23,159 nucleotides of DNA. Origin: a virus. Each line of letters starts with the position of its first letter. The first letter of the stretch is position 1. Below, piece by piece: positions 1,310-14,037 of the stretch. The stretch is taken from the IMG/VR virus record IMGVR_UViG_3300018048_000067, positions 1 to 23,159 of that record. One strand, given 5' to 3'. The notes below the pieces were generated by a model. It made no database searches. It saw only the letters and a list, made by a program, of their open reading frames with translations, and had not been told where the DNA came from. The translations under genes were made by a program, and so were the position numbers.

Positions 1310-1344
1310 ATGGTAGGAATATATACAGGAATCTTGTATATTTG
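1310..1344 (+). promoter_or_regulatory. Bacteroidota-type promoter for the M15 homologue
   Basis: TATATTTG at 1337-1344 matches the Bacteroidota -7 element TAnnTTTG exactly. The -33 element is weak (only ATGG near 1310-1313 lies at about the right distance). It lies after the lysis terminator and before an isolated gene, and would give a leader of about 95 bases before the ATG at 1448. Confidence 0.65.
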
Positions 1345-1389
1345 AATCATCATTCATAATGGTAGATTTTTAGTTAGTTAATTAGTCAA

Positions 1390-1435
1390 GGGGAGGAGTT
1401 AAACTATTTTGGATTCTGGTGCGACCAACCTCCCC
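1390..1435 (+). promoter_or_regulatory. Leader hairpin covering a Shine-Dalgarno-like site
   Basis: GGGGAGG (1390-1396) pairs perfectly with CCTCCCC (1429-1435), and TTGG (1409-1412) can pair with CCAA (1425-1428) to extend the 3' side of the stem. The stem sequesters the purine-rich GGAGG sequence and the possible TTG start at 1409. Downstream of the promoter at 1337 it would be in the 5' leader of the next gene. Confidence 0.5.
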
Positions 1436-1447
1436 AAGATTAAAGAG

Positions 1448-1834
1448 ATGACAAAAGAAGAAGAGCTAGATAGAGAAGGACTGAAGGTGTTAAGGTGGTC
1501 TATGTTTGATTCACCTGATAAGAAAGGGTCTGGCTATATGTTTATGGAGAGAGAACCTGTAGTAGCACTAGATAGAGCTGCACATTATTATACATACATT
1601 CCAAATGTTATACTCGGTTACACATCTAAATACATTGCTGATAAGCTTGGTTTGGTTAGCGATAACCCTCACCGCATCGGTAAAGCTGTTCGGATTAGGT
1701 GTGTCGGACCTAAGAAGCGTCTTAAACTCGTTCGTTCGCTTATGGAGCAAGGGGTTCAGAGATTTGCTTTCGATAGGGAAACTGTTTATTTTGATACTGA
1801 CGAAATGAGGCCCCCTTCTATATACCTTTGGTAA
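1448..1834 (+). CDS. Degenerate M15 peptidase homologue with lost zinc ligands
   Basis: The 128-residue protein follows the M15 peptidase plan from end to end: GSGYMFMEREPVVALDRA (27-44), then IPNVILGYTS where active members have I-SGYRS, then H75-R-I-G-K-A-V-R82 where the family has HxxGxAxD, and V-Y114-x-D116 where it has VHxD, ending in IYLW. His75 remains but the zinc Asp is Arg82, the metal-binding His is Tyr114, and the conserved Ser and Arg of SGYR are Leu and Thr. I infer a catalytically dead protein. It has its own promoter (1337) and terminator (1871). ATG 1448 is preferred; a TTG start at 1409 with an upstream GGAGG would add 13 residues. Role unknown; cell-wall binding or control of lysis are guesses. 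Confidence 0.75.
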   Translation: MTKEEELDREGLKVLRWSMFDSPDKKGSGYMFMEREPVVALDRAAHYYTYIPNVILGYTSKYIADKLGLVSDNPHRIGKAVRIRCVGPKKRLKLVRSLMEQGVQRFAFDRETVYFDTDEMRPPSIYLW

Positions 1835-1870
1835 CAATTTCCTTTCTTTCCTGAATCTGTTGTTGATTCG

Positions 1871-1902
1871 AGAGGTCGCCCTAAAAAGCGGCCTCTTTTT
1901 TT
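1871..1902 (+). terminator. Intrinsic terminator
   Basis: AGAGGTCGC (1871-1879) pairs with GCGGCCTCT (1888-1896), nine pairs including one G-T wobble, around an 8-base loop, followed directly by T's through 1902. It closes the single-gene unit 1337-1902. Confidence 0.85.
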
Positions 1903-3691: not shown

Positions 3692-4615
3692 ATGCTTACG
3701 GAAAAACAGGAAGAAACCATCCTCCTTATGGAGATGATGGAGGAAGAGTGCTATATTGACCCTAATGAAGAGATAGAACACCCTCCAGTAGCTATAAGCT
3801 ACAAAGAACATTCGTACAAGACTGGTGACGGATTTAAGTCTTATCCTACACCTATAGGAACCTATGGTAACTTTAGTTTTATTTACTCGGCTCCTAAACA
3901 CAAAAAGACTTTTTTAGTTAGCTTATTATCAGCTGCTTACTTAGGAGGTAATTCTAGTAAGTTTACTGGAGCTATAAAAGGACATAGAGATGGCAAGAGT
4001 TTATTTCACTTTGACACCGAGCAAGGACGTTTTCACGCCCAGCGTGTCTTTAAGCGACCACTACAGATGTCTGGAGTGGACAGTAGCTGTTACAGGACTT
4101 ACGGACTTAGAAGCAAGAACCCTAAAGAAAGGTTAGCTTTTATAGACTATAAGATAAAGTACGCTGACAATTTAGGCGTAGTAATCATTGATGGTATAGC
4201 CGACCTAATCAATGATGTTAACAACATAGACGAGGCTAATGCTGTGGTACAGAAGTTGATGTATTGGACTGAAACATACAACATCCATATCATTACTGTA
4301 ATACACAGCAACTGGGGTTCTACTAAACCTACTGGCCACTTAGGTAGTGCGTTAGAGAAGAAGGCAGAAACCCAGATATTGATAGAACGAAACGAAACAG
4401 ACCCTAGCTTAATGAATGTTAGGTGTAAGGCTAGTAGAAGCAGAAGCTTCGACAACTTTAGCTTCTTTGTGAATAACGCAGCGTTGCCAGAGATAGCCGA
4501 CAATGATATAGATATAATTGATATAATAGGTGGAAATAAAGCTAAACATACCGCTAAAGCCAATACCGCACCAGTCGGTGAGAGTAACCAAACGAGGGCA
4601 TACTTATCAGCCTAA
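3692..4615 (+). CDS. RecA-fold ATPase (RepA/DnaB-like, AAA_25 type)
   Basis: A 307-residue P-loop protein. The phosphate loop is IYSAPKHKKT (64-73), a variant Walker A in which lysine replaces the usual Gly before Lys72-Thr73. LFHFDTEQG (about 104-112) and VVIIDGIADL with Asp167 (Walker B) follow, then VIHSNWG near 205 and GHLGSALEKKAET, the order seen in RepA-type hexameric helicases and phage-encoded AAA_25 proteins. Likely role is DNA unwinding or loading in phage replication; no separate primase is visible in the window. The C-terminal 28 or so residues are encoded in DNA that also encodes the start of the RusA protein. Confidence 0.75.
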   Translation: MLTEKQEETILLMEMMEEECYIDPNEEIEHPPVAISYKEHSYKTGDGFKSYPTPIGTYGNFSFIYSAPKHKKTFLVSLLSAAYLGGNSSKFTGAIKGHRDGKSLFHFDTEQGRFHAQRVFKRPLQMSGVDSSCYRTYGLRSKNPKERLAFIDYKIKYADNLGVVIIDGIADLINDVNNIDEANAVVQKLMYWTETYNIHIITVIHSNWGSTKPTGHLGSALEKKAETQILIERNETDPSLMNVRCKASRSRSFDNFSFFVNNAALPEIADNDIDIIDIIGGNKAKHTAKANTAPVGESNQTRAYLSA

Positions 4616-4955
4616 GAAGATTACCGACTATAAGAAACAAGTTCAAGAAGCCGTCAGGGAACAACTCCCTGAGGGCTTTTGTTGTATTAAGGCGGACACC
4701 CCAATAGCGGTCACTCAGCTTCATTATGTGTTTGCTTACCCTAAGAGTATGCCTAAGTATAAACAAAATTCTTCGTATATTCAGTACAAGGTAACTAAAC
4801 CAGACCTACACGATAATTTAAATAAAGCGTTGTTTGACGCACTAGAAGGTGTATTATGGGAAAGGGACCAGAACGTAGTCGCAATGGACGGAGTAAAAAA
4901 GTACTACGGAGAAAGCGACGGAATAATATTAAATATACAATGCTTGAACTCTTAG
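4530..4955 (+). CDS. rusA: RusA-like Holliday junction resolvase
   Basis: The 141-residue product starts as RusA proteins do (IPLKPIPHQSVRVTKRGHTYQPKK) and has the core KPDLHDNLNKALFDAL-GVLW-RD (about 89-114), whose aspartates bind the catalytic metals, then GVKKYYGE. RusA dimers resolve four-way junctions in recombined or replicating phage DNA. Homology to the family N-terminus requires the GTG at 4530, which places the first 86 bases inside the ATPase gene in another frame. It sits next to annealing and helicase functions. Confidence 0.85.
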   Translation: MEIKLNIPLKPIPHQSVRVTKRGHTYQPKKITDYKKQVQEAVREQLPEGFCCIKADTPIAVTQLHYVFAYPKSMPKYKQNSSYIQYKVTKPDLHDNLNKALFDALEGVLWERDQNVVAMDGVKKYYGESDGIILNIQCLNS

Positions 4956-5485
4956 CAAGAAAACACAACCTGTGGATTAGTATGGTACTTGGCTTCGGCT
5001 GCGACTACGACACAGCTCAAGATATAGTACAGTCTATGTACCTGCGTATGAATAAGTACATCAAAGACGAAGGTAGAATAATGTACAAAGACGACGAGGT
5101 AAACCGCTTCTTTATATACGTCACCCTCAAGAATATGTACCGAACGTATGTTAGTGCAGAGAAAAAGTTTGTTTGGTATGAAGTCAGAGAGGATGATGCT
5201 ATAGATACTGAGATGATGGAGGGTGCTTTTGATGAAGCTATGGAGATTGCATTTCAGACGCTTGTAACGAGGATTGAGGGTGAGATGAAGACTTGGCATA
5301 GGTACGACAGGATATTGTCTGAGAAGTACCTTAAAAGCGATTACAGCCTAAGGGATATAGCAAACGGCTCAGGAATTAGTTTGACTAGCATATTCAACTC
5401 AATGAGGGAGAACAAGAAGATATTGAAAAAGAAGTTCGGTGAGGACTGGCAGGACTTTAAAAACGGAGATTATCACTTAATATAA
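4940..5485 (+). CDS. Sigma-70-like RNA polymerase sigma factor
   Basis: From ATG 4940 the product is 181 residues. The N-terminal part resembles sigma region 2 (MVLGFGCDYDTAQDIVQSMYLRM, compare DAEDIVQ-x-x-xLR), and the C-terminal part has a region 4-like helix-turn-helix at about 135-160 (YSLRDIANGSGISLTSIFNSM) followed by a basic helix KKILKKKF. It could direct host polymerase to phage promoters; unusual repeats in front of the late operon (14742-14774) are a candidate target. An ATG at 4856 is in frame but would overlap RusA by 100 bases and add a sequence with no family likeness. A terminase-small-subunit-like role is the main alternative. Confidence 0.65.
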   Translation: MLELLARKHNLWISMVLGFGCDYDTAQDIVQSMYLRMNKYIKDEGRIMYKDDEVNRFFIYVTLKNMYRTYVSAEKKFVWYEVREDDAIDTEMMEGAFDEAMEIAFQTLVTRIEGEMKTWHRYDRILSEKYLKSDYSLRDIANGSGISLTSIFNSMRENKKILKKKFGEDWQDFKNGDYHLI

Positions 5486-11770: not shown

Positions 11771-12961
11771 ATGAGTAAGCAAATCAAATCACTAGACTTT
11801 CAACAATCATTCGTAAATCAGATGGCGGAGTTCAGCCGCTCTGTAGCTCTGAGCTACGGCTACTCTGAAGACTGGTGCAGCGTATCCGCTGACCGCCTAG
11901 AGCTATGGGAGGACCCTAGCGACCTAAGCCAGTACTGGCGCATAGCTTTATTAAGAGGCTCTAAGACTATCGGCTATAAGATGTACACAGCGGACGGCTG
12001 TAGGATATTAGCACAGGACAATTACGGCCGCCCACTGGTGCACAGAGATAGCAGAAGCTTATTTATCTCTGCTATAGACCATTCTGGGCTCTGGGGCTAC
12101 GAGCTGAATCGTAGATTTGATAAGGAGCTATCAATATGCAATCACTTATATTCTGGGAATGGAGCTCTGGACTATTCGACCCTAGACTACTGCGGTGACT
12201 TTAAATTCAACGACCCAGAAACGGCTACTTTCTTGCCAGCTGGAAAGCCAGCCTTAAAGGACTGCACCACTGGCGAAAACTGGGGCAAGATGCACCAGAG
12301 CCAGAAAATAGGGAAAGCTGTCCGCTATGTGCTGGACTGCTGCGGCCTAATGTATCAGGACCAGCATATTGAAGCTGTGGTAAATTATATAAAGGCGGCA
12401 AATACGCCGCTGGAGTTTTTGTATAGCAGCCAGACAGGCGAGAATATATCAGATGTTTACGATACGGAATCAGCGGAGGGGAACGGCTCGCTCAACTCTA
12501 GCTGTATGAGAGGTTATGGAGAGTACTACGAGGACCTAGACAGCTGCCCAGATGTAGAGGTGATTTATACGCTGGACCCAGAAAGCCGATTGACTAGCCG
12601 AGCTCTGCTGTGGACCACTAGAAAGGGCTCTAAAGTACTTGATAGGATATACGGCTCAGATAGTACAATCGAAGCCTATAAACAGCTGGCGAATGAGAAA
12701 GGCTGGTATCACAAAGAATATCAGAGCTACGATAGCACCAGACAATTTATCAATCCAGATGGTGAGGCTATCCGCTCCAGCTTTGCTATTAGCTGCGATA
12801 TGTTCAATAGCATAGAAAACAGCCGCTGCCCATATATGGATACGTGGAAATTCTACAGCGTAGAACAGGGGATTTTAACCAACGATTTAGATTTAGCCAA
12901 CGAATATGGAGGCTCAGTATATGAGCTAAGATGCACTAGCGGAGAAGCGGAGCTGTACTAA
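11771..12961 (+). CDS. Unknown 396-residue protein with SCMRG and LDRIYG motifs
   Basis: A soluble protein rich in Ser, Tyr, Asp and Cys. Its second half has an ordered motif set: NSSCMRGYGEYYEDL (Cys245-Met-Arg-Gly248), then VEVIYTLDPESRLTSRALLW, then KVLDRIYGSD (290-294 core) and IEAYKQLANEKGWY. I associate this arrangement with uncharacterised proteins in various phage genomes, but know no activity for it. A pair of cysteines (LDCCGL) and CTTGENWGK lie in the middle. No membrane segment or signal. GC content and codon choice (AGC Ser, CTG/CTA Leu, GAG Glu) set it apart from the early and late operons. It lies between a membrane protein and a peptidase gene. Confidence 0.7.
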   Translation: MSKQIKSLDFQQSFVNQMAEFSRSVALSYGYSEDWCSVSADRLELWEDPSDLSQYWRIALLRGSKTIGYKMYTADGCRILAQDNYGRPLVHRDSRSLFISAIDHSGLWGYELNRRFDKELSICNHLYSGNGALDYSTLDYCGDFKFNDPETATFLPAGKPALKDCTTGENWGKMHQSQKIGKAVRYVLDCCGLMYQDQHIEAVVNYIKAANTPLEFLYSSQTGENISDVYDTESAEGNGSLNSSCMRGYGEYYEDLDSCPDVEVIYTLDPESRLTSRALLWTTRKGSKVLDRIYGSDSTIEAYKQLANEKGWYHKEYQSYDSTRQFINPDGEAIRSSFAISCDMFNSIENSRCPYMDTWKFYSVEQGILTNDLDLANEYGGSVYELRCTSGEAELY

Positions 12962-13032: not shown

Positions 13033-14037
13033 ATGAACACTACACTTTTGACAATTTTAGAAACCCAGACAGAAAGCTATAATACTAAAGCGATGGCCGA
13101 TACTATGGCGGCTCTGCTGCTTAGCTCTGGGGCTACCATAGAAACCGACAAAGCTGGCAATTTATTTGCCACTAAAGGAGCTCCACCAGCTGGCCAGTTT
13201 TACCCTTGTATAGCTGCACACCTTGACAGCGTGCACGATATTATTCCAGAGGGCCGCTATCATATCCTAGAGCTAGGCGGCAAAGCTTTCGCGATGGACA
13301 GCCAGACGCTCCGCTTCGCTGGAGTAGGCGGCGATGATAAATGCGGCCTGTATATAGCTCTACAGGTTTTACGCTCTGTTCCTTTCTGTAAGGTGGCTCT
13401 GTTCGTAGATGAGGAGGTGGGCTGCGATGGTTCTGGCGTTGCTTCGCTGGACTGGTTCGCTGACTGCGGCTATATCCTACAGAATGACCGCAGAGGCTAC
13501 GCCGACAGCGTCCGTACTATTATGGGCAGCCGCATAGCGTCCGACAGTTTTATAAATGCAGTGGAGCCCATCAATCGAAAATACCAGCGGAGCTGGTGCG
13601 ATTCTGGAGGCTTAACAGATGTATACACTTTAGCCACTAGAGGGCTGGAGCTGTCTATGCTAAACTTGAGCTGCGGCTATTATTTACCCCACCAGCCAGA
13701 GGAGTATATAGATATTGCAGAGCTCGAAGCTGTGCTACGTTTTAATATCGAGGTGGTCCGAAAGCTAGGCGGCACCAGATACGAGAACAAGGCCGAGCGG
13801 ACCAGCTACGGCTATGGCGGATACTATAGCCACCACTGGAGCGAGCCAGCAATTAAATCAGCTATAGACCCAGAGCCAGACGCTGAGCCCAGCTGCGACT
13901 ACTGCAAAGCTGAGAATAATCTAGAGCTGGATAGCTGGGGCTGGTGGTGCCATAACTGCGGCGGCTACAGCTACAGGCCAGACCGATATACAGAGGAGGA
14001 TACAGCCAGCATAGACTGGCCAGAGTGGGACGAATAG
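13033..14037 (+). CDS. M20-family zinc metallopeptidase with C-terminal zinc ribbon
   Basis: Residues 1-245 are an M20 peptidase (PepT/aminoacylase-like): AAHLDSVHD gives metal ligand His63 and Asp65, GVGGDDKCG gives bridging Asp102, VDEEVG gives catalytic Glu127 and metal Glu128, QNDRRG gives Asp152, and CGYYLPHQPEEY gives His220. All key residues are present, so it should be active on peptides or acylated amino acids; substrate unknown. There is no separate lid-domain insertion of usual size, so it is compact. Residues 288-309 form a zinc ribbon (C288xxC291, C306xxC309) after a Tyr/Ser linker, an unusual addition. Higher GC and distinct codon use indicate recent acquisition. Three terminators follow. 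A small CGGC/GCCG hairpin lies in the 71-base gap before it. Confidence 0.85.
   Translation: MNTTLLTILETQTESYNTKAMADTMAALLLSSGATIETDKAGNLFATKGAPPAGQFYPCIAAHLDSVHDIIPEGRYHILELGGKAFAMDSQTLRFAGVGGDDKCGLYIALQVLRSVPFCKVALFVDEEVGCDGSGVASLDWFADCGYILQNDRRGYADSVRTIMGSRIASDSFINAVEPINRKYQRSWCDSGGLTDVYTLATRGLELSMLNLSCGYYLPHQPEEYIDIAELEAVLRFNIEVVRKLGGTRYENKAERTSYGYGGYYSHHWSEPAIKSAIDPEPDAEPSCDYCKAENNLELDSWGWWCHNCGGYSYRPDRYTEEDTASIDWPEWDE

Follow-up and report, generated by a model that had tools for sequence, protein, structure and literature searches.

The gene at positions 1448-1834 (+ strand) of the viral DNA analysed here encodes a 128-amino acid protein, hereafter the pseudo-M15 protein, with a predicted fold derived from phage M15_3 endolysins but without their zinc-site and catalytic residues, and this loss is fixed throughout a family of 45 distinct proteins. 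We consider it rather probable that this protein is a neofunctionalised, cytoplasmic and probably early-expressed pseudoenzyme. It would have been put to new use, because it is kept beside early DNA genes whatever lysin the phage carries, and this new use is probably inside the cell.

The window, i.e. the whole stretch of DNA analysed, is the complete 23,159-base virus record IMGVR_UViG_3300018048_000067, with most of its genes on the + strand. Its host is likely flavobacterial, because the isolates nearest by terminase are the Nonlabens phages P12024S and P12024L (52% identity). The lysis module, at the left end of the window, includes a holin-like membrane protein (347-778, + strand), for which holin is a putative name given its hydrophobic C-terminal segments and whose PHROG matches are only to families without function, and the intact M15_3 endolysin (775-1158, + strand; PF08291, E 3e-22; phrog_894, E 1.9e-36) already recognized as complete when the sequence was read without database searches. 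After the pseudo-M15 gene, the early module starts with an Erf-type ssDNA annealing protein (2303-2869, + strand; phrog_155, E 1.4e-43; PF04404, E 3.5e-36), and continues with an SSB-like protein (at 2873), named from its acidic DLPF-type tail and genomic place rather than from a named family, an AAA protein (at 3692), RusA (at 4530) and a sigma-factor-like protein (4856-5485) with weak matches to phrog_1740 (sigma-factor) and to helix-turn-helix families. The latter is conserved across the early modules of most relatives and is a candidate phage transcription regulator. Elsewhere in the window, the gene at 13033-14037 resembles by eye an M20/M42 metallopeptidase (AAHLDSVHD, VGGDDKCG, DEEVGCDG), which is unusual for a small phage, and is preceded by an unannotated gene for a 396-amino acid product (11771-12961).

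Homology and predicted fold

Translation was taken from the ATG at 1448; a TTG at 1409 would be possible, but Met at the 1448 position is near-universal in close relatives. Used alone as a query, the protein gave no Pfam match (nothing at E <= 5), no PHROG or PDB match, only chance matches in NCBIfam, and no acceptable tblastn match among isolated phages (50,697 phage records). Relatives were found in IMG/VR: ten proteins at 79-86% identity, whose profile led to 27 members with identities down to 43%, and, by scanning for the signature GSGYxFMERxP, 52 contigs that yielded 45 distinct pseudo-M15 proteins once duplicates were removed. These records are metagenomic fragments. PF08291 was detected in none of 24 members and a weak match to the phrog_894 endolysin in nine of 24. 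Prophages were sought in 84,980 bacterial and archaeal species genomes and none had a pseudo-M15 gene with the patterns used, suggesting that the carriers are virulent phages and not temperate ones.

Intact phage M15 endolysins starting with FDSPDxxGSG were gathered by DNA pattern as a reference set of 76 sequences. An HMM of intact FDSPD-type M15s matched all 29 pseudo-M15 members tested, with E values from about 9e-14 to 1.4e-23 (1.8e-19 for the window protein). When the FDSPD...GSG stretch was removed, leaving 82 columns, the 29 members still scored 19-49 bits (35 for the window protein), against 9 bits at best from 1,450 shuffled sequences; this motif-free control rules out that the homology comes from the shared FDSPD..GSG motif alone. 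Profile-profile comparison (hhalign) of pseudo-M15 and intact M15 proteins gave 99.6% and E 4e-24. The AlphaFold2 model of the window protein (pLDDT 93.3) has its core strands and helices in the order of those in the model of the intact window endolysin, and Foldseek placed the Zn DD-peptidase 1lbu as its top PDB match (probability 1.00, E 2e-3). The endolysin model, taken as the fold control (pLDDT 96.9), also had 1lbu first (E 3.9e-5). In BFVD, 31 matches to the pseudo-M15 model were obtained at E <= 1e-3, the named top ones being peptidases or wall hydrolases, mostly M15. On profile and model evidence, the pseudo-M15 protein is a true M15_3-derived protein over its whole length, and the full-length M15 homology that the sequence-only reading had judged by eye was borne out by profile searches and structure prediction alike.

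With the FDSPDxxGSG endolysins of the Peptidase_M15_3 type (PF08291, phrog_894), the protein shares, besides homology over the whole length and the predicted fold, the FDSPD..GSG start, GY.S, SH..G.A, the framework of the HxD region and a C-terminal W. It differs from them in lacking the zinc Asp, the HxD His and the SGYR Arg, in falling below a Pfam match, in having new invariant residues (W17, E34-R35 and R76), and in that its gene goes with the early module. The nearest solved structures, the Streptomyces albus G Zn DD-carboxypeptidase (1lbu, M15A) and phage M15 endolysins such as LysB4 (6akv), have the same fold and differ in being active zinc peptidases that keep the ligands equivalent to His154 and Asp161. 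The structural matches also included the N-terminal signalling domain of Hedgehog, an M15-type fold in a non-peptidase binding use. Hedgehog is a secreted animal signal in which the zinc site is kept, and there is no evidence that its function and that of the pseudo-M15 protein descend in common.

Loss of the active site

The 45 distinct pseudo-M15 proteins were aligned with the 76 intact relatives. The zinc Asp of SxHxxGxAxD, present in 76/76 intact sequences, is missing from all 45 dead ones, where the position is occupied by R (29), Q (8), K (6), M (1) or T (1). Likewise, the His of HxD and the Arg of SGYR are found in every intact sequence and in no dead one, Tyr taking the place of the His in 41 of them. 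In the window protein these regions read H75-RIGKAVR82, Y114 and L56-GYTS60, confirming the substitutions (Arg82, Tyr114 and LGYTS) noticed at first reading. In turn, the first His (H75) and the Asp of HxD (D116) are each retained in 43/45. The first His and Asp positions align with His154 and Asp161 of 1lbu, which we take to be zinc ligands, and the cleft Arg of SGYR is presumably the substrate-binding residue. Four positions are invariant in the dead family (W17, E34, R35 and R76), of which E34 and part of the set fall inside the signature used for the scan, and the computed pI of members is around 8.2-9.5. As the zinc Asp, the HxD His and the SGYR Arg are missing from 45/45 distinct relatives, a one-off mutation in the window copy is ruled out; copies of the dead family with an intact active site were not found.

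From this loss of residues, peptidoglycan cleavage by the pseudo-M15 protein is predicted to be absent. Strong conservation at the former site positions (H75, R82/K/Q, Y114 and D116) could be taken as a sign of a new active site, either metal-independent or with a different metal dependence, but position 82 can be R, Q, K, M or T and the residue set corresponds to no known chemistry, so that a protein that is still an enzyme seems very unlikely. Because of its lost zinc site and a score under the Pfam cut-off, the protein should be classified neither among M15 peptidases nor among endolysins.

Binding of wall substrate and a block of superinfection at the wall were among the roles first proposed, and in a broader form the M15 cleft would hold a stem peptide or a peptidoglycan precursor, blocking either superinfection or host wall synthesis. 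This would fit the M15 fold and the retention of H75 and D116, and is compatible with the independence of lysin class described below. We nevertheless regard it as improbable: all members lack the SGYR Arg as well as two of the three residues presumed to hold the zinc, and retained binding of wall substrate is not expected because that Arg was lost along with the zinc site. No signal peptide or membrane segment was seen in the protein, which argues against a role at the wall, and it has neither an export signal nor a wall-binding domain.

Phylogeny and selection

The dead proteins group in the tree as a single clade (support 100/100) on a stem of 2.1 changes per site, and the endolysin type of the window sits in another clade, apart from them. 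This topology is consistent with a single loss followed by a burst of change; long branches and an alignment of 130 columns limit what can be said about the exact M15 parent, which is uncertain with a protein this short and a stem this long. Intermediates between intact and dead M15 proteins were not found. A recent duplication of the adjacent endolysin was considered and ruled out, as there is no BLASTP alignment between the two proteins and they belong to separate clades.

Within the window clade, mean identity is 79.0% for the pseudo-M15 protein versus 67.8% for the adjacent endolysin, the former being higher in 41 of 45 pairs, and the pseudo-M15 protein is also more conserved than the holin-like protein, Erf, SSB, AAA and RusA. 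Across the whole family the gap with the endolysin narrows, and Erf slightly surpasses the pseudo-M15 protein in conservation. The pN/pS ratio was 0.22, compared with 0.26-0.31 in three neighbours, as rough values with synonymous sites near saturation. These figures indicate that the gene is under strong purifying selection. With 45 distinct intact reading frames carrying fixed substitutions, this low ratio and a conservation above that of the neighbours, the probability that we are looking at a one-off mutation or a decaying pseudogene is negligible.

Genomic context and neighbouring lysins

The lysis enzyme encoded upstream was tallied in the 33 loci having more than 1.6 kb before the pseudo-M15 gene. 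It was an M15_3 endolysin of the window type in 14, an FDSPD-type M15 in six (L025 being a seventh), a GH24 lysozyme in six and an Amidase_2 in four. Four types of lysis enzyme (two M15, GH24 and Amidase_2) thus occupy one fixed genomic place in otherwise syntenic phages (L022, L030, L161, L163, L179 and others). Swaps are seen even inside close groups, with an amidase in L161 versus an M15 in L030 and L180, and a GH24 enzyme in L022 within the window clade. PF08291 was not found in the GH24 and amidase records in searches of the whole records, which are fragments and include some of 32 and 41 kb. On the other side of the gene, 36 of 37 loci have Erf, downstream and in the same orientation. 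In L198 the upstream region consists of unrelated genes on the opposite strand and the early module is unchanged. As a side observation, a tRNA-Ala(tgc) lies directly downstream of the pseudo-M15 gene in one clade (8394-8468 in L035 and 5365-5439 in L037).

These data bear on the proposal, made from the sequence, that the protein titrates the real endolysin, and on the more general possibility that it regulates lysis time by pairing with or shadowing either the adjacent M15 endolysin or its cytoplasmic substrate. The two proteins have the same fold, and over half of the loci whose upstream region is available have an intact M15 endolysin 0.2-1.4 kb before the pseudo-M15 gene. However, the main argument against titration is that the lysin varies while the pseudo-M15 gene and Erf stay: an M15 titrator would not be expected to persist in phages with non-M15 lysins, and the gene is kept beside GH24 or Amidase_2 enzymes in records where no M15_3 was found, with swaps within close groups. 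In addition, the window endolysin has no similarity to the pseudo-M15 protein detectable by BLASTP, the dead clade is separate in the tree, and the gene has its own unit and terminator in the window clade. Regulation of the endolysin is thus quite unlikely. The neighbours that stay constant serve early recombination and replication, which also speaks against the lysis and wall roles put forward at first.

The gene is accessory and missing from related phages with the same module. A search with the Erf protein, in a sample biased by peptide patterns and including some short loci, found it in only one of 80 loci, and the region examined in the Nonlabens phages P12024S and P12024L has the endolysin and Erf and lacks the pseudo-M15 gene. 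In phages with an M15 endolysin and Erf and no pseudo-M15 gene, the slot may be occupied by NinG (PF05766, L213:1811-2185) or by a PDDEXK_5 protein (PF11645, L214:5247-5621); by direct reading, the small ORF that precedes the pseudo-M15 gene in the L163 group precedes NinG in L213 instead. At most, this hints that early functions of the recombination type reside in the slot.

Transcription unit and leader

The sequence-only reading had also assigned the gene its own promoter, leader hairpin and terminator. Direct reading locates a candidate Bacteroidota-type -7 promoter element, TATATTTG, at 1337-1344 (+ strand). The Bacteroidota -7 consensus is TAnnTTTG. A -33 TTG was not seen at the usual spacing from the element, and a sigma70 scan gave no + strand site at 1337-1344. 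TAnnTTTG occurs within 145 nt upstream of the gene in 20 of 47 loci, when 5.6 would be expected from dinucleotide shuffles. The leader hairpin (1390-1435, + strand) is formed by GGGGAGG (1390-1396) and CCTCCCC (1429-1435) and stops 12 nt before the ATG. It is present in around 14 close relatives and absent from other clades, and changes on both sides of the stem were identified in L007 and in L021/L177; these changes were read by hand, as the MAFFT alignment of the leaders set the stem arms out of register. Searches in Rfam assigned the leader to no family, with only chance-level matches to RyhB and GcvB. Downstream of the gene there is an intrinsic terminator (1870-1897, + strand) with 10 pairs, including 6 G-C, and a T run behind them, and direct reading showed terminator-like hairpins 3' of the gene in many relatives.

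The arrangement varies among clades. Just before the start codon, L025, L029 and L096 have a compact hairpin that is terminator-like, has a T run after it and resembles an attenuator, and in the clade of L030, L160 and L161 the promoter motif lies directly before the start codon. In L021 and L177, an additional ORF (MKLVTKAGTYEADTFW...), about 38 codons long, separates the leader hairpin from the pseudo-M15 gene, and its stop overlaps the pseudo-M15 start. A private promoter is not universal, because TAnnTTTG is missing from the near upstream sequence in the L163/L175 group, where a small ORF precedes the gene. Separate control is therefore supported for the window clade, with hairpin and terminator as first described and the promoter identified by its motif, and does not extend to the whole family.

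Possible function

Pseudoenzymes are well known from animals and plants. Like other pseudoenzymes, the pseudo-M15 protein would have kept the fold and lost the chemistry; no published family of fixed phage pseudo-endolysins was found in the open-access literature. In the explanation we favour, the ancestor would be a phage M15_3 peptidase, probably an FDSPD-type one, from which the zinc site and the substrate Arg were lost once, and the dead lineage would have gained basic and aromatic invariant residues, some at former cleft positions, with strong purifying selection maintaining the protein since then. It would be made as a soluble cytoplasmic product from its own unit at the boundary between late and early genes, most likely together with the latter, as its position, the promoter motif and the terminator suggest. 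There it may act as a binding protein through its remodelled basic/aromatic cleft, and would be neither a lysis enzyme nor a partner of the endolysin. Conservation beside the lysis module could also mean a role late in infection.

As to what is bound, a nucleic acid, or some other anionic partner during recombination and replication, is a guess that we hold with some doubt, basic charge alone being weak evidence. A host protein inhibited early in infection is about equally likely, the M15 fold then serving only as a scaffold for host takeover or counter-defence. Such a role would suit an accessory gene that heads the early module, has a promoter motif and a terminator of its own, and whose product is very conserved and found in a single one of 80 Erf loci. 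However, no positive sign of a host target was obtained, and PADLOC returned no known defence or counter-defence family, with only a chance-level match to DpdH in 2 of 24 members (E 0.03). We consider this possible, if somewhat doubtful, and it overlaps with the pseudoenzyme explanation, from which it differs solely in the ligand.

In practical terms, annotation by fold or remote homology would wrongly label the pseudo-M15 protein as an endolysin. The family constitutes a clean case for study: the loss apparently happened once and is shared by 45 distinct members, no intermediates were found, the same genomes carry intact relatives, and exchange of the adjacent lysis enzyme leaves the gene in place. 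It makes it possible to test what an M15 cleft binds once zinc is gone. Our tentative proposal, a step beyond the pseudoenzyme assignment itself, is that a wall peptidase fold was converted once to an early effector in nucleic-acid metabolism or host take-over, with a structured leader RNA, attenuator-like in some cases, in part of the family. If true, this would define a new class of phage effectors with the M15 fold as their scaffold.
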